Shown here: positions 3,249 through 27,368 of the stretch, piece by piece | Numbering within the stretch: the first letter of the stretch is position 1 | How the letters are laid out: each line of letters starts with the position of its first letter | Assembly: GCF_001654455.1 (NCBI RefSeq) | Contig: NZ_CP015772.1 | Coordinates: 2,604,001-2,668,000 of the forward strand | Direction: 5' to 3' | From: Niabella ginsenosidivorans | GTDB taxonomy: Bacteria > Bacteroidota > Bacteroidia > Chitinophagales > Chitinophagaceae | Length of the DNA stretch: 64,000 nucleotides | The notes under the pieces: generated by a model | Databases searched by the model: none | What the model was told of the DNA's origin: nothing | The model's input: only the letters and a program-made list of their open reading frames with translations | Translations under genes and position numbers: made by a program

Positions 3249-3263
3249 ATGACAATTTTGATT

Positions 3264-3294
3264 CAAATGTACATACATTTGAACATTTGTCAAA
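3264..3294 (-). promoter_or_regulatory. Bacteroidota-type promoter of the sulfatase with overlapping GntR-type operator
   Basis: On the minus strand TTTG (3294-3291), 19 bases, and TACATTTG (3271-3264) match the Bacteroidota consensus exactly. The word CAAATGTACATACATT (3264-3279), identical to that at 923-938, covers the -7 box. The start site would fall near 3257, only about 9 nt before the chosen ATG, so the transcript is nearly leaderless. Confidence 0.75.
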
Positions 3295-3802: not shown

Positions 3803-3821
3803 GTCTACTAATTTGGTAGAC
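3803..3821. promoter_or_regulatory. 19-bp palindrome over the -33 box of the SusC1 promoter, candidate operator
   Basis: The sequence GTCTACTAATTTGGTAGAC is a near-perfect inverted repeat: six-base arms GTCTAC/GTAGAC and an inner AA/TT pair are exact. It overlaps the TTTG -33 element at 3812-3815. Size and symmetry resemble operators of dimeric winged-helix regulators of the Rrf2 class, some of which control sulfur genes. The identity of the regulator is inference; none is encoded nearby. Confidence 0.6.
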
Positions 3822-3842
3822 TTATATTAATTATTATTTTTG
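3812..3842 (+). promoter_or_regulatory. Canonical Bacteroidota promoter of the 4.1-24.9 kb block
   Basis: TTTG (3812-3815), exactly 19 bases, then TATTTTTG (3835-3842) fits TTTG-N19-TAnnTTTG. Transcription should begin near 3849, leaving a leader of about 250 nt before the susC start at 4102. Confidence 0.75.
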
Positions 3843-3848
3843 TGCTCC

Positions 3849-4101
3849 AAATAAATACCTGCCCTGTTAAGAACAGGTAATTCTCAAATGATCTAATTTT
3901 TATTCAACGCGTATGTCCTTATTCACAAGATCACCAAAAGGAACGTTCCGATGTTGCCCCGCATAATGACGACTTACTAAAAAGGCCGGAACTGCGGTAA
4001 CAGACTCCGGCCGTGACCAAATTCAAAGGCTTCAATGGACATTGAATGGCTTGTATTGCTACAAGCTGTGCACCTTATTATTTAATCATAACACAAATTT
4101 A
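3849..4101 (+). ncRNA. Structured 5' leader of SusC1 mRNA, candidate cis-regulatory RNA
   Basis: The leader between promoter and start codon contains several perfect short hairpins: CCTGTT-AAG-AACAGG at 3863-3877, a GGCCGGA/TCCGGCC stem around 3990-4012, and TTCAATG-GA-CATTGAA around 4030-4045. The last about 75 bases are repeated in diverged form in front of SusC2 (13761-13838), which suggests constraint or recent duplication. I could not match it to a riboswitch class. Confidence 0.4.
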
Positions 4102-7100
4102 ATGAAAAGAGTACTATGTTTCCTAGTAGTGCTAACCATTCTAACACCCTTTTACAGTAACGGACAGGAGAACCCCCACCCCACAATCAATTCAATACTA
4201 AAAGGCCAGGTCTCCGATTCTGTAAGCAAGCTTCCTTTAGCGAATGTATCTGTTCAGATAAAAGGCATCACTAATGGCACTACAAGCGATGCCCGGGGTG
4301 CATTTACGCTATATACAGCTCAAAAATTTCCGTTTACAATAGTGGTAACCAGCGTTGGCTACGAAGCAAAAGAAATAGTAGCCACAGGATCTCCTATTGA
4401 TGTATTCCTGAAGCCGGCTACCAGTCAGCTGGAAGATGTAGTGGTTGTAGGTTACGGCACACAGCGGAAGAAAGACCTGGTAGGCGCTATATCCAAGATC
4501 AGTGCTGCTGAGGTCAATAAAATACCTGTTGCCAGTTTTGATGCGCAGTTGCAGGGAAAGGCTGCGGGCTTACAGGTGGTTACCAATTCCGGTGTGCCGG
4601 GGGAAGGCATTTTTGTCCGGCTAAGAGGTACCACTTCTATTAATTCAAGCAGTGATCCATTGTATATCATAGACGGGGTCTTTGTAAACAATACAAGTTT
4701 GCAGACAACAAATTTAGGCGGCAGGACCTCTTCCCCGCTCGCCGATATTAACCCGGCCGATATAGAATCAATTGAACTATTGAAAGACGCATCGGCAACA
4801 GCTATTTATGGCTCCCGGGGTGCTAACGGCGTTGTAATTGTAACTACAAAACAGGGCGCTTATAAGTCCAAAGTAAAAATAGACCTGAACGTATCAAATG
4901 GCTGGGTTGAAGCCGACAAGTCGGTATTGCCCAATCTCCTTTCCGGTCCTAATGCAGCTACTCTGGTCAATGAATACTGGGTCAATTCAGGGCATCCGGA
5001 GCAAAGCCCGTTCAGGCCTGTGTCTGAAGGTGGTTTAGGTGCCCCGGAAGATCAAAAGACCTATGACAGGCTGGGCTTTTTGCTTAGAAAGGGCTACATC
5101 CAGGATTACAATATCGGCATACAGGGTGGAACCGATAAAACCCGGTATTATTTAGGCGCCGGATACACCAACCAGGATGCGTTCTTTAAAGTAATCGGGT
5201 TTAACCGCGCAAGCCTGAAATTCAACTTTGATAATCAGCTCACCTCGAAAATAAAAATCGGTTTAACCAACAGCCTTTCCAGAAGCTACAGGAACCAGGC
5301 CCGTTTAGGGGATGGGCCTCAGGGGCGGTTGTGGGGATCTGCTATTACAGGTGCAACATATAGTCCCACGCACGATGCATCGGGCGCCCTGATCGGGTTA
5401 GAAAACACTTACTCCCTGGTAGATAATTATGATGTGAATACAACCAGCTTACGATACATCGGCGGCGTTTTTGCAGAGGCCACTCTTGCAGATGGATTAA
5501 AATTCAAATCCAGTGTAAGTGCAGATTATAATTTATATGACGAATACCAATACTGGAATACCAATACATCCATCGGCTCTGCTGTTGGAGGAAAAGCAAT
5601 CTCTGCCATTACACAAAATACCGCATGGATCAATGAACAGGTATTATCCTACAATAAGCGGATCAGTGATCACAACTTTTCTGCCTTAATAGGAAATACG
5701 TTACAAAGTAATGAATTGAAATATACTTATGCCGAAGGGAACGGGTTTGCTAACAATAATTATAAACTCATATCCTCAGCAGCATCCACCCTATCTTCAG
5801 ATGACTGGACAAAAAATACAATCGTGTCCTATTTTGGAAGACTGGCTTATTCCTTTGCGGATAAATACTTTGGTGAGTTCAGTATCAGAGCGGATGGTTC
5901 CTCCAAATTCGGCGCCAACAACCGCTGGGGCACGTTCCCGGCATTTGGCCTGGGTTGGCGGATTAAAAATGAAGCATTTCTACGGGATGTAAAATGGGTG
6001 AATGATCTGAAGTTCAGGGCTTCTTATGGCATAACCGGCAACCAGTCCGGGATCAATGATTTTGCAGCAAGAGGACTATGGTCCGGTGGCAGCCCCTATG
6101 CTGATGTGGCCGGTACTCCCTTAGCAGGAATTGGCCCTCTGCAGTTGGGCAATGATGATCTGAAATGGGAAAAGACAGCACAGACAGATGTTGGCCTTGA
6201 CGCCGCTCTTTTTGATAACCGGCTGTCAATAACCTTCGATTATTATTATAAGTATACTTCTGATCTGCTGCTTCAAAAACCGGTGCCGGCAACTTCCGGC
6301 TTCTCTGAATACTGGGCTAATGTAGGCGAAGTCAGTAACAGGGGTTATGAGCTGAATATAAATTCTGTAAATATCCGGAAAAATCATTTCACATGGAATA
6401 CAAGCCTTAACATATCCGGGAATAAAAACAGGATCGAAAAGCTACCGACACAGATCACAAAATATACCCGTGACTGGGTGATCCTTAAAGAGGGCTATTC
6501 CCTGAATTCATTCTGGCTGTATGAACAGTTATACGTGGACCCCAACACGGGCAACCCTGTATTTGCGGGTCAGGATGCAAATGGCACTGTTACCGCAGAC
6601 GACAGGAAAATCCTGCACAATTTTTATCCAAAATTTTATGGGGGCATAACGAACAGCATCACATTTAGACAGTTCGACTTCAGCACGCTGTTCAGCTTTC
6701 AGTACGGCAACTACAACCTGAACCTGCAACGTTTTTTCTTAGAAAGGAACCCTGGCACAGGCGCAGATGCCACATTATTAAAAAGATGGCAAAAACCAGG
6801 AGATATTACGGATGTTCCGAAACTTACTTCCGCGGGTTATAATTATACACTGGATCAGAACAGCCGTTATCTGGAAGATGCTTCCTTCATAAGACTGAAA
6901 CAACTATCAATAGGATATACGTTACCAAAGGAAATTGTACAGCGGCTGAAATTATCCAACCTCAGGTTTTATTTTATAGGCGCCAACCTGTTTATTCTTA
7001 CAAAATATACCGGGGATCCTGAAACAAATGTGACTTCTGACCCCAATGCACAGGGGCTTGGCGGATTTGGAACTCCTCCACAGCCAAGAAGTTTCCAGTT

Positions 7101-7122
7101 TGGTTTTAACCTGACTTTCTAA
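4102..7122 (+). CDS. SusC/RagA-type TonB-linked outer-membrane receptor (SusC1)
   Basis: The 1006-residue protein has a signal peptide (MKRVLCFLVVLTILTPFYSNG), a carboxypeptidase-regulatory-like domain (about 33-110), a TonB box-like DVVVVGYGTQ, a plug with SIELLKDASATAIYGSRGANG, and a beta-barrel ending in FQFGFNLTF with terminal aromatic Phe. It should form the TonB-driven channel for the SusD lipoprotein encoded 27 bp downstream. The ATG at 4102 is preferred over 4042 because the signal peptide starts there and the start context matches that of SusC2. A 152-bp tract (4288-4439) is almost identical to SusC2. The sulfur-related neighbours suggest an organosulfur or sulfur-bearing substrate, which is inference. 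Confidence 0.95.
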   Translation: MKRVLCFLVVLTILTPFYSNGQENPHPTINSILKGQVSDSVSKLPLANVSVQIKGITNGTTSDARGAFTLYTAQKFPFTIVVTSVGYEAKEIVATGSPIDVFLKPATSQLEDVVVVGYGTQRKKDLVGAISKISAAEVNKIPVASFDAQLQGKAAGLQVVTNSGVPGEGIFVRLRGTTSINSSSDPLYIIDGVFVNNTSLQTTNLGGRTSSPLADINPADIESIELLKDASATAIYGSRGANGVVIVTTKQGAYKSKVKIDLNVSNGWVEADKSVLPNLLSGPNAATLVNEYWVNSGHPEQSPFRPVSEGGLGAPEDQKTYDRLGFLLRKGYIQDYNIGIQGGTDKTRYYLGAGYTNQDAFFKVIGFNRASLKFNFDNQLTSKIKIGLTNSLSRSYRNQARLGDGPQGRLWGSAITGATYSPTHDASGALIGLENTYSLVDNYDVNTTSLRYIGGVFAEATLADGLKFKSSVSADYNLYDEYQYWNTNTSIGSAVGGKAISAITQNTAWINEQVLSYNKRISDHNFSALIGNTLQSNELKYTYAEGNGFANNNYKLISSAASTLSSDDWTKNTIVSYFGRLAYSFADKYFGEFSIRADGSSKFGANNRWGTFPAFGLGWRIKNEAFLRDVKWVNDLKFRASYGITGNQSGINDFAARGLWSGGSPYADVAGTPLAGIGPLQLGNDDLKWEKTAQTDVGLDAALFDNRLSITFDYYYKYTSDLLLQKPVPATSGFSEYWANVGEVSNRGYELNINSVNIRKNHFTWNTSLNISGNKNRIEKLPTQITKYTRDWVILKEGYSLNSFWLYEQLYVDPNTGNPVFAGQDANGTVTADDRKILHNFYPKFYGGITNSITFRQFDFSTLFSFQYGNYNLNLQRFFLERNPGTGADATLLKRWQKPGDITDVPKLTSAGYNYTLDQNSRYLEDASFIRLKQLSIGYTLPKEIVQRLKLSNLRFYFIGANLFILTKYTGDPETNVTSDPNAQGLGGFGTPPQPRSFQFGFNLTF

Positions 7123-7149
7123 AATCAATTTTTTAAAAATAGTTAAGAT

Positions 7150-8523
7150 ATGAAAAGAATAAAAGGTGCCCGGTCCTATACGCTGTCAATGCTATTATTG
7201 CTGCTGGGGCTTTCTTCCTGCAAAAAGTTTTTAAATGTAGAACCAAGAATAGCAACATCTGACCTGGTAACGATCGTAGATGAAAATTCCGCAGCAACAG
7301 CAGTAAGGGGCATTTATAACGAATTACAATCTGATGATTACTATGGGTATAATTATCCTATGATCATTAATCTATCCGGTGATAATGTGCAGTATACAGG
7401 AAGCCAGGCCGTTAATAAAACACTGACGTCACATACGCAATTAGCAGATCTTGGTCCGTTAAATACGGTATGGGTAGCTATATACAATACCATTAACAGG
7501 GCTAATAATGTAATAGCAAAAGTGCCGGAAGTTCCCTTAACAACCACTTTTACTGAAACGATCCGGAACCAGTTAATCGGTGAGGCTTATTTCATCCGCG
7601 CATTGGCTTATTTTGATGTTGTAAGAACCTGGGGCGGCGCCCAGCTTGTATTGGAACCTACGTTATCTGCAAACAGCATAAAGGATATGCAAAGAAGCAG
7701 CATCCCGGAGACCTATGCACAGATCCTGAACGATCTGAAAGCGGCTGAGGCCTTACTGCCGGAAACAACCAACAGGATCAGGGCTACAAAAAAAACCGTT
7801 TGGGCGTTGAGAGCCAGGTACCATTTATATCAAAAGGAATGGGCTGATGCCATCGAATATGCATCCAAAATAATCAACGATCATCAGAATTACACGTTAG
7901 TGAGCCCTTATAATGCCTTTTTTGCCAATAATGCTTCCAACACCAGTGAATCTATATTTGAGCTATACTATAATACGAATGTTACCAATACCCAGGCATA
8001 TAACTGGCAGCCTTCCACAAATGGCGGAATCGGTTGGCAAAGGCCTACTGATGCAATAGCTGTAGTATTGACAAATGCACAAACCGGGGGTGACAGGAAA
8101 GCGCTTGTTACAAGCGTTTCCGTTAATGGCGCGCCCACCTGGTACGGCAATTTATATTACCGCACCAATGGAACGGATCCCGCTTATATTATAAGACTGT
8201 CCGAGATGTATCTGATCCGGGCTGAAGCTAAAGCGCATCTGGAAGACCTGGCAGGTTCCTTAGCAGACCTGAATACCGTCAGGAACCGCTCACACATTCC
8301 CGATGCCGGTGCCACTGATCAAACGGCGCTGCTCTTATTAATTGAAAATGAGAACAGGGTCGAGTTTGCGTTTGAAGCACACCGGTGGTTTGACCTGGTG
8401 CGTACCGGCAGGGCATTACAGGTATTAGGGTTTACTGATGCCACCAAGCAATTGCTGCCAGTTCCCTACGCCCAGATCTTAGTGGATAAGAGTCTTAGTC
8501 AAAACCCCGGTTATGAAGATTAG
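7150..8523 (+). CDS. RagB/SusD-family outer-membrane lipoprotein (SusD1)
   Basis: The 457-residue protein has a lipoprotein signal peptide with the lipidated Cys24 in LGLSSCKKFLNVEP, then the SusD fold: IYNTINRANNVIAKVP and GEAYFIRALAYFDVVRTWGG of the TPR-like part, and near the C terminus LSEMYLIRAEAKA, LNTVRNRS and ENRVEFAFEAHRWFDLVRTGRA. It would sit on the cell surface as the lid of SusC1. At 457 residues it is on the short side for SusD, as is its paralogue at 16961, so the ligand may be small. Confidence 0.95.
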   Translation: MKRIKGARSYTLSMLLLLLGLSSCKKFLNVEPRIATSDLVTIVDENSAATAVRGIYNELQSDDYYGYNYPMIINLSGDNVQYTGSQAVNKTLTSHTQLADLGPLNTVWVAIYNTINRANNVIAKVPEVPLTTTFTETIRNQLIGEAYFIRALAYFDVVRTWGGAQLVLEPTLSANSIKDMQRSSIPETYAQILNDLKAAEALLPETTNRIRATKKTVWALRARYHLYQKEWADAIEYASKIINDHQNYTLVSPYNAFFANNASNTSESIFELYYNTNVTNTQAYNWQPSTNGGIGWQRPTDAIAVVLTNAQTGGDRKALVTSVSVNGAPTWYGNLYYRTNGTDPAYIIRLSEMYLIRAEAKAHLEDLAGSLADLNTVRNRSHIPDAGATDQTALLLLIENENRVEFAFEAHRWFDLVRTGRALQVLGFTDATKQLLPVPYAQILVDKSLSQNPGYED

Positions 8524-8677
8524 TGTTCTTCATTCCAATCTATTTTATCAATGACAAATGTGCCACTATTTTGAAAATCGGCCTTTTTTTCGTCATGCCG
8601 GGCGGAGTGCAACGAAGCCCTTTCGGATGATTGTGCCCCCCTCCCGGAGGGCAGTCAACGCAAATAAAAAACTCAAT
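8524..8677. repeat. Intergenic spacer with remnant of a REP-like palindromic repeat
   Basis: The stretch from 8591 (CGTCATGCCGGGCGGAGTGC and following) resembles the left arm of the complete palindromic repeat at 28914-28988, which begins CGTCATCCCGGGCGCAGCCG. It is GC-rich compared with its flanks. Its presence argues against starting the next gene at the in-frame ATG at 8558. Confidence 0.5.
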
Positions 8678-10024
8678 ATGACAAAAATAAATACAACCGT
8701 TAGCTGGCGACCTGGCGAAATAAAATTATTTCGCTTTGCCTGCCTTTTTTTTATAGTGCTTTCGATCCCTTACGACCCCAATTTATACAAAAGCTTATCC
8801 AACCCGGGCTTTTCATTTGCGGATGTTCTTCAACTGGCTACTTATCGTACCAGCTTTATTCCGGAAAGCTTAAAAGTGGGAACACACCTGGAAGGGTTTT
8901 ATAACTGGGGCATTGCTGCAATCATTGCTTTATCCGGCACCTTTATCTGGAGCGCCCTGGTCAAAGAAAAGGAACGTATCAATTATGAGCAGCTCTATTA
9001 CTGGCTGCGTGTATTATTGCGGTTCAGGCTGGGCATTGCTTTAATCTCCATAGGGATACTAAAACTATTCCCCATCCTGTTGCCAAAGCCTACTTTAAGC
9101 GATTACAATACAGAATACGGCGACCTGTTGCTATGGAAGATCTATTACCTCAGCACTTCTGTTACCAAGGCAAACTATGTATTTTCTTTAGGGTTCTTAG
9201 AAATTATAGGCGGGGTATTGCTGCTCTTTAGAAGAACTGCAGCTATAGGCGCCGGGCTCCTGATCGCTGTTCTTGCCAACATTGTTATCGTAAACTATGT
9301 ATATGAAATCGGGGAACAGGTGTACAGCTCCTTCCTTTTATTAATCGGAGTTGTACTTTTTGTATACGATTTCCCCAGGTTTTTCAACCTGCTGTTCAGA
9401 CAAATAAAAAGTGAGCCTGATCCTTTTGTGCCCTATTATAACAGGTCTGTAGCCCGGTACAAACCGTTTTTAAAATCGGTGTTGATCATCGGTTTTCTTG
9501 TATACGGAATTGCTGCTTATTCCAACTGGAAAGCAACCAATTACCCCTACCCGGCAACAAAGGGCATCAATAATATCCGGGGATTGTATGATGTAAAGAG
9601 CTTTATAATTAATAATGATACCATTGACTATTCCCTGCTGGATCCCATAAGATGGCAAAATGTTGTCTTTGAGTCATGGAATACATTAAGCATCCGGAGC
9701 AACGAACCAGTAACCATTGACAGCACAAAACCAGGGATCGTATGGCAGTCAGACCTGAACCGCAACTTTGAAAAAACAGGAAATGCAGGGCGTCATTTTT
9801 ACAGGTATCTGTACAAAAAGGAAGCTGAAAACAGGTATGCTGTCCAGCTCTTTGAAGAAAGCAGCCATACAAAAAAATATGCTCTCAGGTTTAATATCCT
9901 GGACAGCATCATTCATGTAAGCGGAGTTAATATGCATGGAGATTCTGTTAAGGTGCAGTTAGCGCGCATTCCCAAAACCTATTTAATTGAAAAAGGCCGC
10001 AGGAAACCCATTAAAATTTATTAG
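8678..10024 (+). CDS. DoxX-like membrane protein with C-terminal extracytoplasmic domain (paralogue 1)
   Basis: The 448-residue protein has about seven membrane segments: FRFACLFFIVLSIP near the N terminus, GIAAIIALSGTFIWSALV, then a DoxX-like bundle starting YYWLRVLLRFRLGIALISIG, with FLEIIGGVLLLFRRTAAIGAG, and a last helix VLIIGFLVYGIAAYSNW. About 150 polar residues follow, probably outside the membrane, with RWQNVVFESWNTLSI. DoxX/DoxD proteins include the membrane subunit of thiosulfate:quinone oxidoreductase; whether this family shares the activity is unknown. I chose the ATG at 8678 because the 40 residues before it are encoded in a repeat-like spacer and are not conserved in the paralogues. 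It is followed after two bases by a second copy. Confidence 0.75.
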   Translation: MTKINTTVSWRPGEIKLFRFACLFFIVLSIPYDPNLYKSLSNPGFSFADVLQLATYRTSFIPESLKVGTHLEGFYNWGIAAIIALSGTFIWSALVKEKERINYEQLYYWLRVLLRFRLGIALISIGILKLFPILLPKPTLSDYNTEYGDLLLWKIYYLSTSVTKANYVFSLGFLEIIGGVLLLFRRTAAIGAGLLIAVLANIVIVNYVYEIGEQVYSSFLLLIGVVLFVYDFPRFFNLLFRQIKSEPDPFVPYYNRSVARYKPFLKSVLIIGFLVYGIAAYSNWKATNYPYPATKGINNIRGLYDVKSFIINNDTIDYSLLDPIRWQNVVFESWNTLSIRSNEPVTIDSTKPGIVWQSDLNRNFEKTGNAGRHFYRYLYKKEAENRYAVQLFEESSHTKKYALRFNILDSIIHVSGVNMHGDSVKVQLARIPKTYLIEKGRRKPIKIY

Positions 10025-10026
10025 CT

Positions 10027-11496
10027 ATGACTATCATAAGTACGCATAATACGATTCAGCCGCTTCATACCGGGAAGCCTGCATGGAGCAATAGCGAGAA
10101 ATTTTTCTTTAGGATTGCCTTCCTGTTCTTTATACTATTGATTGTGCCCTTAGAAAAAGAATGGTATGCCCGGCTGTTTTCAGATTTTTCATTTTATAAA
10201 TTATTGTCAGCACTGGCAGGCGCCCGGCCGGGATTGATAGATATTCATACAGAAAGCGGCAAATGGGGTCTTGCCTCCTATACCACCTGGGGTGCATTTT
10301 TGGCCGTCAGTATTATTGGGGCTATTATCTGGACCTTTGCAGCACAAAAGAAAGGCAGAAAAGAGTATAATGTATTGTACTATTGGTTACGGGTGTTTGT
10401 GCGGTACAGGGTTGCCATCGGGTCAATAGCTTTTGGTTTCATTAAATTTTTCCCGATGCAGATGCCCTTTCCTTCCATCAGCAACCTGCATACCAATTTT
10501 GGGGACTACGCTCCTTTTAAGCTTTACTGGCAGTCTGTAGGGCTTTCTCTCTGGTATGAAATATTCCTGGGCACTTTGGAAATTCTTATCGGGGTTCTGC
10601 TGTTTTTCAGATCTACTACTGCAATAGGCGCCATATTAACTGCCGGTATATTTTACAATATTGCCCACGCAAACCTCGGATATGATGGCGGCGTGCACGT
10701 TTACAGCTCGTTTTTTGTTATCCAGGCCCTGTTCCTGTTGGTGCAATATATACCTGATATATGGAAGCTCTTTATAAAAAGGCAAACAGTTGTACCCAAT
10801 CATTATTACCCGGAATACACTTCCCGCTCAAAGCGTTTTTCTTATATACTGACAAAATCTGTATTTATCATACTCTTTTTAGTTTTTACAGGGTATAACC
10901 GCTATGATTTACATTATAACCAGGGACGGCTTAAAGAGCCCATAGTTCCCGGTTTAAAGGGATTTGAGGGACATTACCTGGTAAAAACATTTTTAAAGAA
11001 CGGCAGTCCGCTTTCTTATTCTCCCCTGGATTCCGTAAGATGGCACGATGCCGTTTTTGAAAGATATTCTACATTTTCCTATAAAGTATACAAACCCTTT
11101 CAAATCAGCATTGGGAACGGAGTTCCGGATGGTTCGGATATTTTTAAGGAATATGAGTTTACCGGCAGGGCCGGAGGCCGTGTTTACCTGTACTATGAAA
11201 TTGACTCATTATACAATGACCTGTATTTAGTAGATAAAGGCCAGAACTTTAGTACCAGGATCAAAAAGAAATTAGCCAATAAGGATTTCCTCAATTTAAA
11301 ACAATTATATACCACTCCATTAAAAGACACTTTAGGCATCCTGCAATGGCATTATGTAAAAATTAATGAAAACGCAATAGAGCTTTCCGGTTTAGACCAG
11401 CACCAGGATCCTATAAATGTTGTACTGGAACGGATACCTGAGGTTTATACCACGGGAAAAAGCTGGTATTCTGAAAATAAGAAGTTCACCTATTAG
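10027..11496 (+). CDS. DoxX-like membrane protein with C-terminal extracytoplasmic domain (paralogue 2)
   Basis: The 489-residue protein shares the plan of its upstream neighbour. The DoxX-like core reads LYYWLRVFVRYRVAIGSIAF, GFIKFFPMQMPFPSISNLHT, GDYAPFKLYWQSVGLSLWYE and IFLGTLEILIGVLLFFRSTT. The C-terminal part (from about residue 295) carries the family signature SVRWHDAVFERYSTFSYKVYKP and ends with an IELSGL motif and basic tail. Only two bases separate it from paralogue 1, so they are translationally linked and may form a heteromeric complex. The function in the membrane is inferred to be redox or sulfur-compound related from family and context only. Confidence 0.75.
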   Translation: MTIISTHNTIQPLHTGKPAWSNSEKFFFRIAFLFFILLIVPLEKEWYARLFSDFSFYKLLSALAGARPGLIDIHTESGKWGLASYTTWGAFLAVSIIGAIIWTFAAQKKGRKEYNVLYYWLRVFVRYRVAIGSIAFGFIKFFPMQMPFPSISNLHTNFGDYAPFKLYWQSVGLSLWYEIFLGTLEILIGVLLFFRSTTAIGAILTAGIFYNIAHANLGYDGGVHVYSSFFVIQALFLLVQYIPDIWKLFIKRQTVVPNHYYPEYTSRSKRFSYILTKSVFIILFLVFTGYNRYDLHYNQGRLKEPIVPGLKGFEGHYLVKTFLKNGSPLSYSPLDSVRWHDAVFERYSTFSYKVYKPFQISIGNGVPDGSDIFKEYEFTGRAGGRVYLYYEIDSLYNDLYLVDKGQNFSTRIKKKLANKDFLNLKQLYTTPLKDTLGILQWHYVKINENAIELSGLDQHQDPINVVLERIPEVYTTGKSWYSENKKFTY

Positions 11497-11513
11497 TATA
11501 AAAACAATAAAAT

Positions 11514-12278: not shown

Positions 12279-12288
12279 ATCATCTTCA

Positions 12289-13740: not shown

Positions 13741-13838
13741 TGCTGTACATACAGCTAAAACAAAGGCATCAACGGGTATTGAGTGGCTTATAAAATACAT
13801 GTTACACGCCTTAATTATTTAATCATAATACAATATTA
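13741..13838. other. Spacer before SusC2, duplicated remnant of the SusC1 leader
   Basis: Bases 13761-13838 match 4025-4101 in diverged form (common words include AATTATTTAATCATAA and ATGAAAAGAGTACTATGTTTCC across the start). The promoter and palindrome seen before SusC1 are absent here and I see no TAnnTTTG box, so SusC2 is probably transcribed from upstream. A small inverted repeat GCTGT-ACAT-ACAGC lies at 13742-13755. Confidence 0.55.
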
Positions 13839-16943: not shown

Positions 16944-16960
16944 TACAAAAAAATTTATTT

Positions 16961-18274
16961 ATGAAAAGGTGGTATTCAGTATTTCTTATCAGCGTGGTTC
17001 TTATCAGCTTTTTTGCTTCCTGCAAAAAATTCCTAGATGTTGAATCCTTTGATGCTATTTCTGATGAAAAAACGATTTTCGATAAAGCCTCAGCAGAAAC
17101 TGCTGTCAGAGGGGCGTACAGCGCTGTATCCCTATCCAGCTATGGAAGTTCTTTCCAGACTACCATTCTCCTGGCCGGAAGTGATATAAAATCATTGAAC
17201 AATGCGCAAACAGATCTGAATATAATCAATCACGATTTACGATCTGATATTGCTTTTTTAAGCACTTATTGGCTTAATTTTTATAACGCAATTAATATAT
17301 CGAATCATATTATTGAAAAAGTGCCTTTGGTGAACGATGTTGCACTGACAGATGAAATACGTGATCAATTTTTGGGAGAAGCCTATTTTATAAGAGCATT
17401 GTCCTATTTTGACCTGGCCAGGGTTTTCGGAAATGTGCCTATATACCTGACGCCTACATTAACTATTGAAGATAAGCTGGGCGTACCACAAAGCAACCAG
17501 GCAACAGTATATAACCAGGCAATTACGGATCTGAATCAGGCTATCGAATTATTGCCCGCTTCAGTAGTCAGGAACAGGGCCCGTAAATCCACAGCATACG
17601 CCCTCCGGGCCCGTGTAAATTTGTATCTCAAAAAATACCAGGAAGCAGAAAATGATGCCACAGAGGTCATTAACAATACAAGCTATCAATTAATAAAGCC
17701 TTTCAAATTAGCAGGCGGTACCGCAGAATCCATTTTAGAGCTCTCCTATAATGATAATAATACAAACCCTGCTTTTGGCTTATGGAATACCAGCAACAGG
17801 GCCTTGGAGCCCAAAAGCGAAATCCATTCATTACTGAACGACAAAAATATTGGCGGGGGAAGAAAAATATTATCGGTACAAAGCAGCCTGGGCATTGTTG
17901 GCGCCATATGTCCCACCAAAACATCTCCGGCATATCTTATAAGAACGGCAGAAGTTTATCTTATCAGAGCAGAAGCCCGTGCTTCCAGGCAAACTCCGGA
18001 TCTTACAGGTGCACTGGCCGATTTAAATGCGGTGAGAGAACGGTCTGAAGTACCATTAGCAACGGTGAAAGACAAGGAGGGGCTATTACTGGCTATTGAA
18101 AACGAAAGAAGAATTGAATTTGCCCTTGAGCCCCACAGGTGGTTTGACCTGACGCGGACGGGCAGAGCGGCAGCAGTTTTAGGGGCAACAAATCCTCAAA
18201 AATATATTTTTCCTATCCCGGAAAGTGAAATTCTGGCGGATCCTTCATTAGTTCAGAACCCAAGTTACAACTAA
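16961..18274 (+). CDS. RagB/SusD-family outer-membrane lipoprotein (SusD2)
   Basis: The 437-residue protein has a lipoprotein signal with Cys21 in SFFASCKKFLDVES, then NFYNAINISNHIIEKVPLV, GEAYFIRALSYFDLARVFGN, LIRTAEVYLIRAEARA, LNAVRERSEV and ENERRIEFALEPHRWFDLTR. It pairs with SusC2 as the surface ligand-binding lid. Like SusD1 it is short for the family. The motifs line up one-to-one with SusD1, so the whole susC-susD-DoxX-DoxX cassette has been duplicated. Confidence 0.95.
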   Translation: MKRWYSVFLISVVLISFFASCKKFLDVESFDAISDEKTIFDKASAETAVRGAYSAVSLSSYGSSFQTTILLAGSDIKSLNNAQTDLNIINHDLRSDIAFLSTYWLNFYNAINISNHIIEKVPLVNDVALTDEIRDQFLGEAYFIRALSYFDLARVFGNVPIYLTPTLTIEDKLGVPQSNQATVYNQAITDLNQAIELLPASVVRNRARKSTAYALRARVNLYLKKYQEAENDATEVINNTSYQLIKPFKLAGGTAESILELSYNDNNTNPAFGLWNTSNRALEPKSEIHSLLNDKNIGGGRKILSVQSSLGIVGAICPTKTSPAYLIRTAEVYLIRAEARASRQTPDLTGALADLNAVRERSEVPLATVKDKEGLLLAIENERRIEFALEPHRWFDLTRTGRAAAVLGATNPQKYIFPIPESEILADPSLVQNPSYN

Positions 18275-18299
18275 GATTCCTCACTCTAACTCCACAAAT

Positions 18300-19703
18300 A
18301 TGTCATCAACAAAAAATTTTCTTAACAGGTGGGCAAAACGGCTCAATTCCATAGCACTAGCCGGATCAGCAACAACTCCGTGGCGACCCTGGCAATTGAA
18401 TCTGTTCAGGTTCGCTTTTATTTTTTTACTCATCTTAATTATTCCTGTAGACTGGAAATTTTACAGTGACCTGTATCATACCAAATGGGCCAGTTTACAT
18501 GTTTATGAGCTATTAAAGCTTTCAAAATATATGCCCGATTTTTTCGCATTAAAGGATCACCAGCCGGAATGGGGGCTTAAAAGCTTCTCCTCCTGGGGCC
18601 TGGCAGCCCTTATTGCGATAGCAGGAGCATTCATTTGGCGTAAACAGCAGCCGGATAAAAAAGAATATGTTGTTCTTTATTATTGGCTGCGGGTGCTTGT
18701 TCGCTATCGCCTGGCCATTGCACTATTTGCATATGGGTTTATAAAACTATTCCCATTGCAGATGCCTTACCCATCGCTGAGCAATCTGCTCACAAATTAT
18801 GGCGATTTTTTTTCCTGGAAAATATATTTTCAAACTTTAGGCATAGAGCCCAAGTATGAATCGTTTCTAGGGTTCGTGGAAATTTTAGCAGCCGTGCTTC
18901 TTTTTAACCGGAAAACCACCGCATTTGGAGCCGGTCTGATAATCGGGTTCCTTGGAAATGTGGCGGCGGCCAATGGCTTTTATGATATCGGCGAGCATGT
19001 GTTTAGTACGTTCATTGTACTACTATCCGTTTTTTTGCTGGTATATGATGTGCCCAAGCTATATACCCTTTTAATTAAAGAAAAGAAAGGGATTGCCAGT
19101 AAATTCAAACCCGTTTTTTCGGAACCCGTATTAAAGCGGATCAGGTTTTTCGGAAAGTCTTTTACACTCCTTTTTGCCTTGCTATTTGGCAGCCTGGCCT
19201 TATATAGTTTCATTTACGATCCATATAAAGTTCCCAAAACCCCGGGCTTGACCGGGGCCTATGGTTTTTACAATGTAAAGGATTTTGTCATTAACGGCGA
19301 TACGATCCCCTACTCCAAAACCGATTCGACCCGGTGGCAGGATGTGGTCTTTGAGAAATGGTCAACAATTTCGGTTAATGTTAATAAGCCTTTAAAAATA
19401 GACCTGTCGTCAGGCGATGGTTATTTTGAAAATGACATAGACCGTAATTATGAAATAGCCGGGTTATCAGGCAGGCGTTATTTCTATTACAAAGCCGATA
19501 CGATTAATAAAAAATTATTGCTACAGAATAAAAACAAAAATTACAGATATGAGAAATTAAATCTTTCGTATACGATCCCAAGCGACTCTGTTATTATCCT
19601 GTCCGGCATCAATGAAAGAAACGATTCAATCCACGTTCGTTTAGAGAAGAACAATAAGAAAATTTTAATGAAGGAAGGCCGCCGCCGGCCGGTTAATATT
19701 TAA
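18300..19703 (+). CDS. DoxX-like membrane protein with C-terminal extracytoplasmic domain (paralogue 3)
   Basis: The 467-residue protein follows SusD2 as paralogue 1 follows SusD1. Its core reads YYWLRVLVRYRLAIALFAYG, FIKLFPLQMPYPSLSNLLTN and FLGFVEILAAVLLFNRKTTA. The C-terminal domain has GFYNVKDFVINGDTIPYSKT, RWQDVVFEKWSTISV and VIILSGINERNDSIHVRLE. Around seven membrane segments are expected. Membrane redox function is inferred from the DoxX resemblance only; no cofactor-binding motif is visible. Confidence 0.75.
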   Translation: MSSTKNFLNRWAKRLNSIALAGSATTPWRPWQLNLFRFAFIFLLILIIPVDWKFYSDLYHTKWASLHVYELLKLSKYMPDFFALKDHQPEWGLKSFSSWGLAALIAIAGAFIWRKQQPDKKEYVVLYYWLRVLVRYRLAIALFAYGFIKLFPLQMPYPSLSNLLTNYGDFFSWKIYFQTLGIEPKYESFLGFVEILAAVLLFNRKTTAFGAGLIIGFLGNVAAANGFYDIGEHVFSTFIVLLSVFLLVYDVPKLYTLLIKEKKGIASKFKPVFSEPVLKRIRFFGKSFTLLFALLFGSLALYSFIYDPYKVPKTPGLTGAYGFYNVKDFVINGDTIPYSKTDSTRWQDVVFEKWSTISVNVNKPLKIDLSSGDGYFENDIDRNYEIAGLSGRRYFYYKADTINKKLLLQNKNKNYRYEKLNLSYTIPSDSVIILSGINERNDSIHVRLEKNNKKILMKEGRRRPVNI

Positions 19704-19750
19704 GATTATTTTTTATTGGCAGCTTATCATAAACTATAAAAATTTAAATT

Positions 19751-21232
19751 ATGTCTGAATATAAATTTACTGCATCGCAGGAGTTAAGTAACGATCACCA
19801 AAGGCCCATCTGGACCAATTTCCAGAAAATAGCTTTTCGGATAGCGTTTATTTATTTTCTTTTATTATGCATTCCGACCTATTCCAATTTTTATAAAGAA
19901 TTATTTGGCCTTCACCTTTCTAAAATAACGTATAATGATGCCCAATCAATTGTTGCATTCTGGCCTCCGCAAATAGTTTTAATTGAATCGGAAGAAGGCG
20001 TATTTGGTCTGTTGAACTATATAAATTTAATACTGGTCTTTTTATTTTCCGTTATAGCCGCATTGATCTGGGGGATTTTTGATAAAAAAACAACAAACTA
20101 TAGCAAATTATATTATTGGATCCGTGTTTTAGTTCGATATCGGTTAGCCTATGGCATGATTGGGTGGGGATTAAAAAAAGCATTCCCGATGCAAATGGTG
20201 TTTCCAACAATCGGAATGCTTAACACTCCCTTTGGAGATATGGCGGAGAAAAAACTGTACTGGTCGCATGTAGGAGTTTCTTTCAATTATACAATTTTTC
20301 TGGGCTTTGCGGAAATCATTCCGGGGCTCCTGCTGCTGCACCGGAAAACAGCCGTACTTGGCGGTGCACTGGCGGCCGTAGTCTGTTTCAATATTGCGCT
20401 GGCGAACCATGCCTATGATGCAGGGGTTGCCGTTCCTGCAGCATACTTTTCAATATTGGGGATCTTTATTGCATGGTACGATTTACCAAAGATCTGGAGT
20501 CTTTTGGTAAAAGAACAGGATGTGGAAGCATATAAATATTATCCAAAGTTTACGTTAAAATGGCAAAGATATCTGCGAAAGGGGTTAAAGCTTTTCTTTA
20601 ATACATTATTCGTGCCGGTTACAGCTGCATTGTGGGCTTATGGCTTTTTTAACGGGAACAACTACAATATACCCAGCACACCCGGGCTTGCCGGTACAAA
20701 GGGCTATTACTCAGTTCCGGAATTCAAGCTAAACAATCGGTACATTGCCTATAATCCAAAAGATTCTATACGCTGGTCTGATGCCACTTTTGAAGCCTGG
20801 TCGTCTTTAAGTTATAAAACCAATCGTCCTGCCATTATTGACCGGATGATCGGCTATTCTCCATTAAGGGTAAAAGGCGATAAAAAAAATACACAATTAA
20901 ATCAGGTAAATACCCAGGACTCCGATGAACTATTAAAAGAAGGCAGGAACAGGGACCTAGGTGTTACACGCTGGGAAGTAGGGGGAATGTCCGGAGAAAG
21001 AAGATATTTCTTTTATCGGGCAGATACGGTCAACCATATTCTCAAATTGCAAAACAAAAACAAGGCATATAAACACGAAAAACAAACGCTTGCCTATAAT
21101 ATTGATGACAAAGGTAAAATAACGTTATGGGGAATTAATGAATTTAATGATTCTATTTTTGTAAGGCTGGAGCGTATTAATAAAAGGTATCCGCTCGTGG
21201 AAGGGCGCCAAAGCGCAAATCAGGTATATTGA
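19751..21232 (+). CDS. DoxX-like membrane protein with C-terminal extracytoplasmic domain (paralogue 4)
   Basis: The 493-residue protein is the fourth copy. The core reads YYWIRVLVRYRLAYGMIGWG, KKAFPMQMVFPTIGMLNTPF and FLGFAEIIPGLLLLHRKTAV. In the C-terminal domain the signature is SIRWSDATFEAWSSLSYKTN, followed by an insertion relative to the other copies (about residues 375-405) and then ITLWGINEFNDSIFVRLERI. It corresponds by position to paralogue 2, to which it is also closer in the FPMQM motif. The stop at 21230-21232 lies just upstream of the next gene. Confidence 0.75.
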   Translation: MSEYKFTASQELSNDHQRPIWTNFQKIAFRIAFIYFLLLCIPTYSNFYKELFGLHLSKITYNDAQSIVAFWPPQIVLIESEEGVFGLLNYINLILVFLFSVIAALIWGIFDKKTTNYSKLYYWIRVLVRYRLAYGMIGWGLKKAFPMQMVFPTIGMLNTPFGDMAEKKLYWSHVGVSFNYTIFLGFAEIIPGLLLLHRKTAVLGGALAAVVCFNIALANHAYDAGVAVPAAYFSILGIFIAWYDLPKIWSLLVKEQDVEAYKYYPKFTLKWQRYLRKGLKLFFNTLFVPVTAALWAYGFFNGNNYNIPSTPGLAGTKGYYSVPEFKLNNRYIAYNPKDSIRWSDATFEAWSSLSYKTNRPAIIDRMIGYSPLRVKGDKKNTQLNQVNTQDSDELLKEGRNRDLGVTRWEVGGMSGERRYFFYRADTVNHILKLQNKNKAYKHEKQTLAYNIDDKGKITLWGINEFNDSIFVRLERINKRYPLVEGRQSANQVY

Positions 21233-21252
21233 TTTTCAATCTGACAATAAAA

Positions 21253-22167
21253 ATGAAAGAAAAAATTATCATAGCAGGGGGAACCGGATTCCTGGGAAAA
21301 TCAATCATCAGAAGGTTCAATAACAGCACCACTCAAATAATCGTTTTAACAAGAGGCCCTGCTGCTGTTGAAGATAATGTGCGCTATGTAAATTGGGATG
21401 CCAAAACCTTAGATAACTGGGCCGGGGAATTAGAAGGAGCAAAAGCTATTATTAATCTGGCCGGCAAATCGGTAAATTGTCGTTATACACGAAAAAATAA
21501 AAATGAAATTATCCGTTCAAGAGTAAATGCAACGTATATCATCGGCAAAGCAATCGAATCATTAAAGATCCCTCCGAAGGTATGGATCAATGCAAGCTCT
21601 GCAGCTATGTTTGGAAACAGCGATACTGAAACAAAAAATGAAATATCTTCGCCCGGAAACAACTTTTCCGCAGAAGTGTGTAAAAAATGGGAGGCAGCCT
21701 TTGACAATAGTCAAACGCCATTGACAAGAAAAATTGTATTGAGGATTGGAGTCGTACTTCAAAAGCAAACTGGATTATTGCAGCCCTTTGAACGCTTGGT
21801 CAAACTTGGTTTTGGCGGGAAAATAGGGACCGGAAAGCAATATATATCCTGGATACATGAAGCCGATTTTTTAAATGTAATTGAAGGTAGTCTCAAAAAT
21901 GAAAAGTATAATGGTATCATAAATTGTTCCAGCCCGCAACCCGTTACTAATAGTGTATTCATGCAAGCTCTGCGGGATGTATTAAAACCTAAAATTGTGC
22001 TATCGAATATTGCCTGTTTTGTATATATAGGTGCCTTAATAATAGGAACAGAAGCTGAGCTTGTTCTCAAAGGCCGCAGAGTGGTATCAGAGAAATTAGA
22101 TAAATACAATTTTAGGTTCCGTTATATCGATATAAAAGAAGCATTTAAGAATTTATATAACCAATGA
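21253..22167 (+). CDS. TIGR01777/YfcH-type NAD(P)-dependent epimerase-like protein
   Basis: The 304-residue protein begins KEKIIIAGGTGFLGKSIIRR, a Rossmann GGTGFLG motif, and continues with the family landmarks AIINLAGKSVNCRYTRKNKN, SRVNATYIIGKAI, SSAAMFGNS, LRIGVVLQ and YISWIHEADF; the C-terminal DUF1731-like part includes VLKGRRVVSEKLDKYNFRFR. Members are extended short-chain dehydrogenase-like proteins of unknown physiological substrate. The ATG at 21253 is chosen over a TTG at 21229, since the Rossmann strand starts directly after it. It is followed after three bases by the oxidoreductase gene. Confidence 0.88.
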   Translation: MKEKIIIAGGTGFLGKSIIRRFNNSTTQIIVLTRGPAAVEDNVRYVNWDAKTLDNWAGELEGAKAIINLAGKSVNCRYTRKNKNEIIRSRVNATYIIGKAIESLKIPPKVWINASSAAMFGNSDTETKNEISSPGNNFSAEVCKKWEAAFDNSQTPLTRKIVLRIGVVLQKQTGLLQPFERLVKLGFGGKIGTGKQYISWIHEADFLNVIEGSLKNEKYNGIINCSSPQPVTNSVFMQALRDVLKPKIVLSNIACFVYIGALIIGTEAELVLKGRRVVSEKLDKYNFRFRYIDIKEAFKNLYNQ

Positions 22168-22170
22168 CCA

Positions 22171-23600
22171 ATGAGTGAGAATAGATTTGACGCCATTGTG
22201 GTAGGCTCAGGCCCCAATGGACTGGCGGCAGCCATTACGCTGCAGCAGGCGGGGCTCTCAGTGCTGCTGGTGGAAGGAAAAGATACCATCGGAGGCGGTA
22301 CAAGAACAGAAGAGCTAACCTTGCCGGGCTTTAAGCACGACGTTTGCTCTGCCATACATCCCATGGCGATCCATTCTCCATTTCTGGCCTCCCTGCCACT
22401 GGAGCAATATGGTTTGGAATACATTCATGCTCCGGTTGCTGCAGCCCACCCGTTTGATAACGGGCATGCAGCATTTGTAACCACATCCCTGACCGAAACC
22501 GCAGCCGCCCTCGGCATTGATAAAAACGCCTATTATAACCTCATACATCCCATAGTAGCACAATGGGATCAGATCATAGACGATATACTGGCTCCCCTTC
22601 GTTTCCCGGCGCATCCGTTGCAGATGGCAGCTTTTGGTATCCATGCCTTACAGCCGGCTTCCCGCATTGTAACAGGGTTTAAGACCAGGGAAGCCCGGGG
22701 ACTATGGGCCGGGATGGCGGCCCACTCCATTCAGCCTTTACAACGCATAATCACTTCAGCCATCGGGCTGGTGCTCATGGCCGCTGCCCACAGGAAGGGC
22801 TGGCCCTTGCCAAAGGGGGGTCTCAATCCATTACCAATGCCATGGCTGCTTATTTTTTATCACTGGGAGGTAAAATAGAAACCGGCCGGTGGGTCACCTC
22901 CATAGAAACATTACCTTCGGCAAAAGCCTATTTATTTGATGTAACCCCCAGGCAATTGCTTCAAATAGCCGGGCACCGGTTATCGGGTTTGTATAAATGG
23001 CAGTTAAAAAGATATCATTACGGCATGGGCGTATTTAAAATAGACTGGGCTTTAAATGGGCCGATACCGTTTACAGCAGCGGCCTGCAGAAAGGCCGCTA
23101 CCATACACATCGGCGCCTCTTACGAGGAAATTGCCTATGCAGAACGCCAGGCAGCTAAAGGAGCGGTTGCTTCAAAACCCTTTGTATTACTGGCCCAGCA
23201 AAGCCTGTTTGACAATACAAGGGCACCTGAAGGCAAACAAACCGCCTGGGCCTACTGTCATGTGCCCAACGGGTCACAAACCGATATGACCGCAGCGATC
23301 GAAAACCAGGTAGAACGTTTTGCTCCGGGCTTCAGGGATATCATTCTTGCGCGGCATACCATGAACACGGTGGCTATGGAAACATATAACCCTAATTATA
23401 TTGGCGGAGATATTAATGGCGGAACCATCGACATCAGCCAGCTTTATACGCGCCCGGCTTTACGGTTCCCCCCCTACAGCACTTCTGAAAAAAATATTTA
23501 TTGCTGTTCTTCCTCTACCCCACCGGGAGGCGGTGTACACGGTATGTGCGGTTATCATGCGGCCCGGGCAGCATTAAAAAGCGTCTTTCATCAAACTTAA
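22171..23600 (+). pseudogene. Phytoene-desaturase-like NAD(P)/FAD oxidoreductase, interrupted by a frameshift
   Basis: The first frame (22171-22878) has the FAD-binding DAIVVGSGPNGLAAAITLQQ and GGGTRTEELTLPGFKHD. After KGWPLPKGG it runs into nonsense, while the +1-shifted frame continues with SQSITNAMAAYFLSLGGKIE to the stop at 23600 and ends with the family-typical SSTPPGGGVHGMCGYHAARA. The switch falls at the G6 run 22815-22820; a seventh G would restore about 477 residues, a normal length. It may be a real inactivation, slippage-dependent expression, or a sequencing error in the homopolymer. Family members act on polyprenyl or unrelated substrates; the role here is unknown. Confidence 0.82.
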
Positions 23601-23606
23601 TTCCTT

Positions 23607-24866
23607 ATGTCATCAGTTAAACAAAAGATAGCACTTTCCGAAGACTGGACAATAGTAGTGCTGGGCTTTTTAATTATTTTTCTGGCCCTGTGGGGGGTAA
23701 TCATTGATGCGCCCTTGTTTACCTGGGATAGTTTTTCCGAATTATCACTCAATGTATTGAATAGGGCTAATCTTCTTAAAACAGGTATCCAGTTCCTGTT
23801 TGTTTATGCTATCGCAATAGCAGGTACAATGATCATGGGTAAATCCATACAGGGTATGCTAAAGTCCTTTCCTGTTATTTATGTGCTTACAATAGTGGCC
23901 TTCATCATCGGAGGCAACGGCAAAGTAAAGCTGCTGAACATGGAAACGGTGATCTTTTGCCTGGGGATCGGGTTGATCGTCCGTAATTTTTTTACCGTGC
24001 CTGCCTGGCTGCAGCAATCGCTGGCTTCCGAGTTCTTTGTAAAGATCGGCCTGGTGCTGCTGGGAACCAGCGTTATTTTTTCGGACATATTAAAAGCCGG
24101 GGCCTTAGGCCTCATACAGGCGCTGGCAGTAGTGCTTTCTGTATGGTACTTTTCTTTTTGGTTATGCAAAAAATTAAAAGTAGACAAAGAGTTGTCCTTA
24201 ATGTTATCAAGCGCCGTTTCTATTTGTGGTGTATCGGCTGCAATAGCAACCTCCGGCGCCATAAAGGGAGACGCTAAAAAACTCTCATTAGTCGTTTCCC
24301 TGGTATTAATAACAGCGGTGCCCATGATGATCGCTATGCCCTGGATCGCCGGATGGCTGGGGCTTTCGGAGGCCATAACCGGTGCGTGGCTGGGCGGCAC
24401 TATTGATACCACAGGAGCTGTGGCGGCTTCAGGATCTTTAGTGGGCGAAACGGCCTTAAAGATCAGCACCATTGTAAAATTTTCCCAGAACGTATTACTG
24501 GGTATTGCAGCTTTTGCAATATCGGTCTACTGGACATATACAAAGAGCACCTCCAAACAGGCGGCTGTTGAAAAACCTACTTTAAAGGTCATATGGGAGC
24601 GGTTCCCGAAATTTGTGGTAGGCTTTATACTGGCCTCGGTGATCTTTTCCTTCTTTTTAGATCCGGGTGTTTCCGGGCAGGTCAAAACGCCGTTAAAGAA
24701 CCTCCAGGGCCTGTGGTTTGCCCTGGCCTTTACCAGCATTGGGTTAGAAACCAATTTTAAAGATCTTGTCGGCATTCATAACCGCAAGCCGGTTATCGCA
24801 TTTCTGGGAGCACAGTTATTCAACATCTTTACCACATTAATTATTGCATACTTCCTGTTTGGATAA
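23607..24866 (+). CDS. YeiH-family putative sulfate/sulfur oxyanion exporter
   Basis: The 419-residue membrane protein has about ten hydrophobic helices and the YeiH signatures FFVKIGLVLLGTSVIFSDIL, SSAVSICGVSAAIATSGAIK, AWLGGTIDTTGAVAASGSL and VKFSQNVLLGIAAF. The family (putative sulfate exporter, PSE) is annotated by association with sulfur metabolism; its transport direction is poorly tested. As the last gene of the block it would export sulfite or sulfate made by upstream enzymes, comparable to the TauE-type exporter of the staphylococcal cst operon. The gap to the previous stop is six bases. Confidence 0.88.
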   Translation: MSSVKQKIALSEDWTIVVLGFLIIFLALWGVIIDAPLFTWDSFSELSLNVLNRANLLKTGIQFLFVYAIAIAGTMIMGKSIQGMLKSFPVIYVLTIVAFIIGGNGKVKLLNMETVIFCLGIGLIVRNFFTVPAWLQQSLASEFFVKIGLVLLGTSVIFSDILKAGALGLIQALAVVLSVWYFSFWLCKKLKVDKELSLMLSSAVSICGVSAAIATSGAIKGDAKKLSLVVSLVLITAVPMMIAMPWIAGWLGLSEAITGAWLGGTIDTTGAVAASGSLVGETALKISTIVKFSQNVLLGIAAFAISVYWTYTKSTSKQAAVEKPTLKVIWERFPKFVVGFILASVIFSFFLDPGVSGQVKTPLKNLQGLWFALAFTSIGLETNFKDLVGIHNRKPVIAFLGAQLFNIFTTLIIAYFLFG

Positions 24867-27139: not shown

Positions 27140-27368
27140 TTGTTATACAGATGAATAGCACAAATTTCAGTAAAAAACAGGTCAAAAGGCCGCCGTGATA
27201 CTTTTGTTATAACTCTGTTACGTCTTTGGGAGATTAGGATTGTTCTTTTGTTTCAGAATAAAACAGCAGCCGTCATCAGTAAAAGCCTGCTCAAAAGTAT
27301 GATTACTGATGGCGGTACCGGCAGCAAGCGGTATACTGCGCATCATTAAAAACAATAAAAACAAGCAA

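Follow-up and report, generated by a model that had tools for sequence, protein, structure and literature searches.

A SusCD operon of Niabella ginsenosidivorans linked to sulfur enzymes and to a putative operator motif shared with cys genes: a probable sulfur-acquisition system

Introduction

SusCD nutrient-uptake loci, whether polysaccharide-utilization loci (PULs) or others, are operons of periplasmic enzymes headed by a TonB-dependent receptor and a lipoprotein. CstB is a persulfide detoxifier, and the CstB of the Staphylococcus aureus cst operon is a persulfide dioxygenase-sulfurtransferase. SoxC and cytochrome c make up a sulfite dehydrogenase, and the DoxDA thiosulfate:quinone oxidoreductase combines an integral membrane domain with a soluble one. 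In the use of mercaptosuccinate and 3-mercaptopropionate by Advenella and Variovorax, a thiol dioxygenase gene adjoins a rhodanese gene, and sulfite dehydrogenases and a putative sulfate exporter are encoded in the genome; the consulted parts of that source (PMC5373536) describe a proteobacterial system with ABC transporter neighbours and LysR control and mention no SusCD. In Salmonella, a yeiH deletion makes cells sulfite-sensitive and YeiH confers sulfite resistance; the annotation of certain orthologues is that of a putative sulfate exporter, and transport by YeiH is not demonstrated in the consulted parts of the source (PMC12880088).

Here we describe a locus of Niabella ginsenosidivorans, lying in a 64,000-nucleotide stretch (2604001-2668000) of the single 5.63-Mb contig NZ_CP015772.1 (hereafter the window), in which thirteen plus-strand genes span positions 4102-24866 by open reading frame (ORF) calls and Pfam, the FAD gene being counted once. 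Two susC-susD-dox-dox cassettes flank a gene for a CstB-like metallo-β-lactamase (MBL)/rhodanese protein, and the 3′ end is made up of an SDR gene, a frameshifted FAD oxidoreductase gene and a YeiH gene; dox is our label for a membrane protein of no named family. The locus is headed like other SusCD loci, but it has sulfur redox enzymes, an unnamed membrane pair and an operator shared with cys genes, and no carbohydrate enzyme. From what we observed directly, namely the gene content, its recurrence, alternative sulfur enzymes in one slot and a shared motif, we conclude that the block is probably a sulfur-acquisition operon, in which SusCD would import an organosulfur compound that is converted to sulfite or thiosulfate, with YeiH handling the sulfite.

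Results

Recurrence of the module

Searching 195 genomes of the same family with dox3 as the query (E up to 1e-15), we found relatives in 51, of which 22 have a close tandem dox pair (E under 1e-50) and the rest mostly one distant copy; a phylum-wide sample of 395 genomes gave dox-profile matches at 1e-20 in 29. A scan with one genome per species gave 255 confirmed dox2 relatives, and the best 80, those most dox2-like, were analysed. The closest named relatives by dox2 are in Niabella defluvii (74%) and N. hibiscisoli (68%). Locus counts below refer to the 79 named loci with a readable dox ORF and to same-strand runs with gaps under 400 bp. Such runs hold at least two dox genes in 78/79 loci, susC and susD in 72/79, the FAD gene in 52/79, and the Ig-like gene and YeiH in 16/79 each. 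Their hosts belong to Sphingobacteriaceae, Chitinophagaceae, several families of Cytophagales and, in one case, Flavobacteriaceae. This recurrence in other genomes makes a chance arrangement very unlikely, and an earlier, sequence-only reading of the window, which a lack of DoxX-like and MBL/rhodanese homologues beside SusCD elsewhere would have refuted, passes that check.

By comparison of coordinates in the 22 dox-pair genomes, 13 of the 27 YeiH copies lie within about 11 kb of the module and the other 14 do not, two contig-edge fragments being left out. In one genome (G119, locus L076) a YeiH gene adjoins a dox gene that is truncated, unpaired and apart from SusCD, and in locus L068 a lone dox gene adjoins the FAD gene. 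A peptidase S51 gene occurs in 8/79 modules (e.g. L165:7228-8157), and in Sphingobacterium modules (9/79) the CstB-like gene is adjoined by that of a thioredoxin-like protein, recognized by eye from its CPWF motif and matching no Pfam model (e.g. L116:12925-13596).

A variable slot for sulfur enzymes

The loci differ in what follows the dox pair. That position is occupied by a CstB-like gene in 25/79 loci, the window being of the type with Ig-like and CstB-like genes, by cytochrome c and SoxC in 36/79 and by a small rhodanese alone in 5/79; the remaining 13/79 have none of these, some of them lying on contigs that end early, and two of them represent a type with a thiol dioxygenase and a four-domain rhodanese. 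SoxC was assigned by BLAST, and two copies scanned with TIGR04555 scored 484.8 and 479.9 (equivalog cut-off 420). All 36 SoxC sequences have RR within the first 60 residues and 35/36 have the ECSGN motif, which we take to provide the molybdenum ligand; CxxCH is present in 37/37 module cytochromes. The two genes lie upstream of susC in Chitinophaga loci (L140-L148) and elsewhere mostly downstream of dox. In the 22 dox-pair genomes (21 of the window's family; the pair surroundings in G436 were left out), all eight TIGR04555 matches over the cut-off are inside the module. The window genome itself has no TIGR04555 match, so that the known sulfite dehydrogenase is found in the same slot of related loci but not here. 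In addition, a SoxC-like gene below the TIGR04555 cut-off adjoins a YeiH gene outside the module (G077:C157:71328-73960).

In Solitalea longa and bacterium A37T11 the slot holds a thiol dioxygenase gene, recognized by CDO_I at 23.2 and 30.4 bits (cut-off 23), and next to it that of a protein with four rhodanese domains (L149:13596-15892, L150:14933-17166); L150, the Solitalea locus, also has a gene of the sodium:sulfate symporter family. The pairing of thiol dioxygenase with rhodanese resembles that of Advenella and Variovorax, as far as the latter is described in the consulted parts of PMC5373536.

SoxC and the CstB-like enzyme never share a locus (0/79; hypergeometric 2e-9). We do not use this exclusivity as proof, because 2 changes suffice to place both labels on a quick SusC tree (71 rows) and the loci are not independent; the tree shows that the split represents stable lineages and not repeated exchange. 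SoxB, SoxA and SoxYZ are not among the neighbour clusters read or scanned, no search having been dedicated to these families. Two candidates for SoxB and SoxA, 590- and 290-residue neighbours in Spirosoma-type loci, proved to be TPR and DUF1684 proteins.

A putative operator motif shared with cys genes

The promoter proposed at 3812-3842 in the sequence-only reading is indeed present and reads TTTG-N19-TAttTTTG, in line with the Bacteroidota promoter consensus TTTG-N19-TAnnTTTG. A perfect dyad, GTCTAC-N7-GTAGAC, covers its -33 box; none is expected in the window by shuffling, and in a matrix scan of the 64 kb only this operator scores over 12. Allowing up to 3 mismatches, nine places in the own genome, the window's among them, have the extended motif, vs none for the reversed control, and a shorter form occurs at 8 (control 2). 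Another of the nine is the 3′ end of a cys cluster with the order Rrf2, peroxiredoxin, cysH, cysD, cysN, cobA, cysJ, cysI, cysE and siroheme/TauE. CysH, CysD, CysI, Rrf2 (122 bits; gene at 4493595-4494002 of the own genome) and the siroheme domain are confirmed by models; CysJ is the best match but below its cut-off (563.9 vs 668), and cysN, cobA, cysE and the peroxiredoxin gene were named by reading the sequence. At this place the motif is directly 5′ of the gene for an 857-residue TonB-dependent receptor adjoining the cluster (L198:9040-11613), a candidate receptor for a sulfur compound. Three motif sites precede a second siroheme/TauE gene, one precedes a PhyH gene, and one is about 250 bp upstream of a multihaem cytochrome c gene (L196:7243-8409, minus strand). 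Another, at 337358, lies between the gene of an SsuD-like monooxygenase (TIGR03565 250 bits, below the cut-off of 518) and a susC, with a susD in the same neighbourhood (G000:C1:335691-347582); the second YeiH gene of the genome (346791-347582) is about 9 kb from this site. The last of the nine is flanked by genes with no evident part in sulfur metabolism. A weaker tenth site, missed by the pattern search, was revealed by the matrix scan 5′ of the cys cluster (4494351-4494367), about 45 bp ahead of where the peroxiredoxin gene probably begins; it scores 18.3, vs 7.3 for the runner-up in the 14 kb scanned.

The motif extends to relatives: across 60 genomes of the family, the own one included, it is present in 25, with 66 matches vs 3 for the control. 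Among 28 sites viewed in other genomes, 5 are followed by a gene for a relative of the 857-residue TonB receptor and 4 are at cysH, cysD, cysN or the peroxiredoxin gene; PhyH lies close to 3, and the rest with a sulfur link are 3 at cysI-like genes (24-25%), 3 at susC and 1 at an O-acetylhomoserine sulfhydrylase gene. TAnnTTTG lies 19-21 bp from the internal TTTG at 10/41 motif sites, vs 0.5% in shuffles. With a symmetric matrix, trained partly on module sites and applied to related loci, we found a site within 600 bp before 49/78 module susC genes (p ≤ 0.033 vs 60 shuffles): 19/23 of the CstB type, 10/20 of the SoxC type, 1/1 with the Ig-like gene only and 19/34 others. The strict CTAC-N7-GTAG core always has 7 spacer bases, though 5-9 were allowed.

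The operon and cys genes thus have the same motif in common, at the 3′ and, in weaker form, the 5′ end of the own cluster and at 4 of the 28 sites in relatives. The simplest inference from the sequences is that it may be the operator of a sulfur-gene repressor, for which the Rrf2 protein is a candidate, and the operon seems to be regulated jointly with the sulfur-assimilation genes of the cell. A near-perfect dyad was also seen in L195, near 8440, between a TIM-barrel gene and a 103-residue gene, which is followed by a sterol-desaturase-like gene; membrane genes like those of L195 follow the motif in L225, L227 and L229.

CstB-like enzyme, Ig-like protein and YeiH

The MBL/rhodanese protein passes both Pfam domains, and its best relatives of solved structure are 3tp9 and 3r2u, the latter presumably S. 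aureus CstB. With them it shares the domain order, an MBL domain with HxHxD and [ST]GD metal motifs followed by a C-terminal rhodanese with a catalytic Cys, and the active-site motifs (THPHADF, TGD...GDVGRPDL, GAGSLCG and VHCASGYRS). In the window and the 23 of the 25 named CstB-like loci that have a long ORF (n=24), THxHADF is found in 24/24, GAGSxCG in 23/24 and a strict rhodanese motif in 19/24; [ST]GD...GRPDL is found in 23/23 of the named sequences. A twin-arginine-type signal, expected from the sequence-only reading, is indicated by RRHFF in the window protein, and an RRx[F/L] motif stands close to the N-terminus in 23/24 sequences, the window's included. By this signal, and by its ties to SusCD, dox and YeiH, the enzyme differs from that of the cst operon. 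The secreted Ig-like protein was considered as a SoxYZ-like sulfur carrier and set aside, the fold search having given generic Ig-like matches.

The YeiH protein belongs to PF03601; TIGR00698 gives 75.7 bits, below the cut-off of 232.6. It had been taken for a putative sulfate exporter, but from the Salmonella data (PMC12880088, consulted in part) it is better read as a sulfite-resistance protein.

Dox proteins

The four dox proteins are paralogues (53% mean column identity). The two predicted cassettes hold up in their susC and susD genes: in both, a TonB receptor with a Plug domain adjoins a SusD/RagB protein, all over Pfam cut-offs. The reading of their membrane proteins as DoxX-like and as a possible DoxD/DoxX thiosulfate:quinone oxidoreductase is not supported: among the four scanned, no Pfam or NCBIfam model passed. 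The best DoxX (PF07681) score is 7.5 bits (cut-off 23.6), and hhalign gives a weak match to the DoxX profile (probability 9.9, P 0.003, 100 aligned columns). DoxD and DoxA models do not match, and three DoxD-type proteins reach an hhalign probability of only 0.4-0.5. We therefore do not uphold the assignment to DoxX or thiosulfate:quinone oxidoreductase, although a distant link to the DoxX profile may exist; DoxDA shares with dox proteins an integral membrane domain plus a soluble domain, but neither sequence nor profile similarity. In the own genome, a single PF04173 match and at least 3 of 4 PF07681 matches among those listed lie outside the operon.

In a dox3 model from a 70-sequence alignment, in which nine columns are invariant, the N-terminal part is a helical domain of membrane type and the remainder has eight strands. 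Foldseek gave no PDB match under E 0.001; the best, over most of the chain, is vitamin K-dependent gamma-carboxylase (GGCX; E 0.005-0.02, TM-score 0.21-0.26), and the C-terminal part matches lipocalin-type barrels (E 0.02 and weaker). HTTM (PF05090), the GGCX-type membrane domain, scores 16.5 bits for dox1 (cut-off 27.7), with an hhalign probability of 0.1-0.3. The modelled fold would accordingly be a weakly GGCX-like membrane domain plus a lipocalin-like domain, with a hint of a quinone-binding membrane fold in the former.

Operon layout and surroundings

Features of the operon are collected in Table 1. With likely starts, of which we chose those of susC1 (ATG 4102), the MBL/rhodanese gene (ATG 12289) and the SDR gene (ATG 21253), the intergenic gaps are 2-98 bp, the largest preceding susC2. 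The original description of a same-strand thirteen-gene block with short gaps therefore stands, corrected in that the FAD gene is frameshifted, in life or in the assembly; an unsplit FAD gene adjoins related modules in relatives. The module susC of L134 and that of L161, the two named Niabella records, are each broken into several ORF pieces, so that frameshifts or assembly errors recur.

Table 1. Operon features with their positions in the window
Feature	Position	Strand	Basis
Putative operator, perfect dyad GTCTAC-N7-GTAGAC	3803-3821	.	Overlaps -33 promoter box; similar sites in own genome and relatives
Bacteroidota-type promoter, TTTG-N19-TAnnTTTG	3812-3842	+	Sequence
susC1, TonB-dependent receptor	4102-7122	+	Pfam Plug, barrel, CarbopepD_reg_2
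susD1, lipoprotein	7150-8523	+	Pfam SusD_RagB and SusD-like_3
dox1, polytopic membrane protein, C-terminal lipocalin-like domain by homology to dox3	8558-10024	+	No curated family
dox2, dox1 paralogue	10027-11496	+	Alignment; relatives up to 74%
Secreted Ig-like protein, invariant CGC motif	11514-12278	+	14-row alignment; Ig-like model, pLDDT 76.6
Putative CstB-like persulfide dioxygenase/rhodanese, twin-arginine type	12289-13740	+	Pfam; 3tp9 and 3r2u; active-site motifs
susC2	13839-16943	+	Pfam
susD2	16961-18274	+	Pfam
dox3, helical membrane domain, then C-terminal beta domain (modelled)	18300-19703	+	AlphaFold2 pLDDT 91.2; Foldseek
dox4	19751-21232	+	Paralogue alignment
SDR, TIGR01777 family, YfcH-like	21253-22167	+	NCBIfam 261 bits, cut-off 207
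FAD oxidoreductase, CrtO-like, frameshift-split	22171-23600	+	Overlapping ORFs 22171-22878 and 22704-23600
YeiH-family transporter	23607-24866	+	PF03601 165.4 bits, cut-off 24.5

Upstream of the operon lie an SGSH-type sulfatase gene (1716-3293, minus strand) and a GntR/UTRA regulator gene (983-1714, plus strand). Convergent with it is a two-component system of sensor kinase and response regulator (24966-27139, minus strand), close relatives of which (72% and 79%) lie about 7 kb from the lone dox gene of L058. A 451-residue protein (27309-28664, plus strand) has a Spondin_N match of 19.3 bits, below the cut-off, and tRNA-Cys (44750-44823, minus strand) is the sole RNA gene found in the window.

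Discussion

A sulfur-acquisition operon might work as follows. When sulfur is scarce, a repressor, perhaps of the Rrf2/CymR kind, would leave the dyad, and the promoter would fire along with the cys genes. The two SusCD pumps would bring an organosulfur compound into the periplasm, where the exported CstB-like enzyme and the secreted CGC protein might produce sulfite or thiosulfate from its persulfide or sulfane sulfur. The paired inner-membrane dox proteins, with their lipocalin-like domain, may act on the organic part or on the sulfane sulfur, by binding or by redox chemistry and perhaps with a quinone; sulfite would pass to CysJI, and the surplus would leave by YeiH. In support of acquisition, the enzymes of the slot act on sulfur, and the module recurs in several Bacteroidota families. 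The earlier scheme of uptake and oxidation is retained in its sulfur theme, in the link to SusCD and in recurrence, but its direction is revised: because the operator is shared with cys genes, the block points to acquisition and not to energy-yielding oxidation.

That oxidation, in which sulfane sulfur or thiosulfate is oxidized in the periplasm for energy and dox serves as a thiosulfate:quinone oxidoreductase, is favoured by SoxC and cytochrome c in 36/79 loci, and a quinone-type cofactor is hinted at by the weak likeness of the membrane domain to GGCX. With dox proteins matching neither DoxX, DoxD nor DoxA, no SoxAXBYZ seen beside SoxC in the clusters read, and a motif common to assimilatory cys genes, we nevertheless hold it to be unlikely. 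Defence against reactive sulfur species also has to be considered, given that CstB is a detoxifier of persulfide; the operon would then remove persulfide and sulfite, and SusCD would import something unrelated, such as a cofactor. The sulfite resistance conferred by YeiH, in the consulted parts of PMC12880088, fits this too. Yet it is the SusCD and dox pair that stays constant while the sulfur enzyme varies, and the motif is linked to sulfate reduction and an SsuD-like gene, which leaves defence an improbable explanation. A PUL for sulfated glycans, from which the neighbouring sulfatase would free sulfate, is suggested by the SusCD pairs, by the SGSH-type sulfatase and GntR regulator upstream, and by sulfatase homologues near the module in L046 (33%) and L048 (46%). 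Pfam identified no carbohydrate enzyme among the thirteen genes, however, and a sulfatase match occurs in only 1/79 same-strand runs (same strand only counted), so we consider this very doubtful.

Several observations weigh against sulfur acquisition. The close dox pair is present in only 5 of the 395 phylum-sample genomes, and because of this the module is scattered, not universal. Two of the nine motif places in the own genome (582655 and 4148434) have no evident sulfur gene, and 9 of the 28 sites viewed in other genomes have no clear sulfur link. No convincing site was found in 29/78 module upstream regions, 10/20 of the SoxC type among them; the strict core precedes only 8/71 named susC ORFs, and the matrix counts carry the training and relatedness noted above. 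The Rrf2 protein is linked to the motif by adjacency to the own cys cluster only. Removal of sulfite, the expected effect of SoxC and YeiH, is equally in keeping with catabolism or detoxification, and a sulfatase gene lies divergently upstream of the operon.

In its broader form, acquisition would imply an undescribed class of SusCD systems, present in several Bacteroidota families and serving organosulfur compounds instead of glycans, with the dox pair as the core, a quinone-linked desulfurizing or sulfur-carrying enzyme, and a downstream sulfur enzyme that varies by lineage; this we put forward tentatively, as a possibility short of an expectation. Each enzyme type is already known. In the literature searched we met with neither their combination nor the constant SusCD-dox core nor the operator link: among the matches listed in a full-text search there is no described SusCD-dox-sulfur system, which agrees with the sequence-only reading.

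If sulfur acquisition is the correct reading, SusCD pumps would serve sulfur nutrition besides sugars, a set of orphan Bacteroidota receptors would gain a class of candidate ligands, and a testable role could be assigned to a membrane family that has no name. The operator could serve to catalogue the sulfur-controlled genes of each genome, and the slot with its alternative sulfur enzymes would provide a natural comparison of periplasmic sulfur processing.

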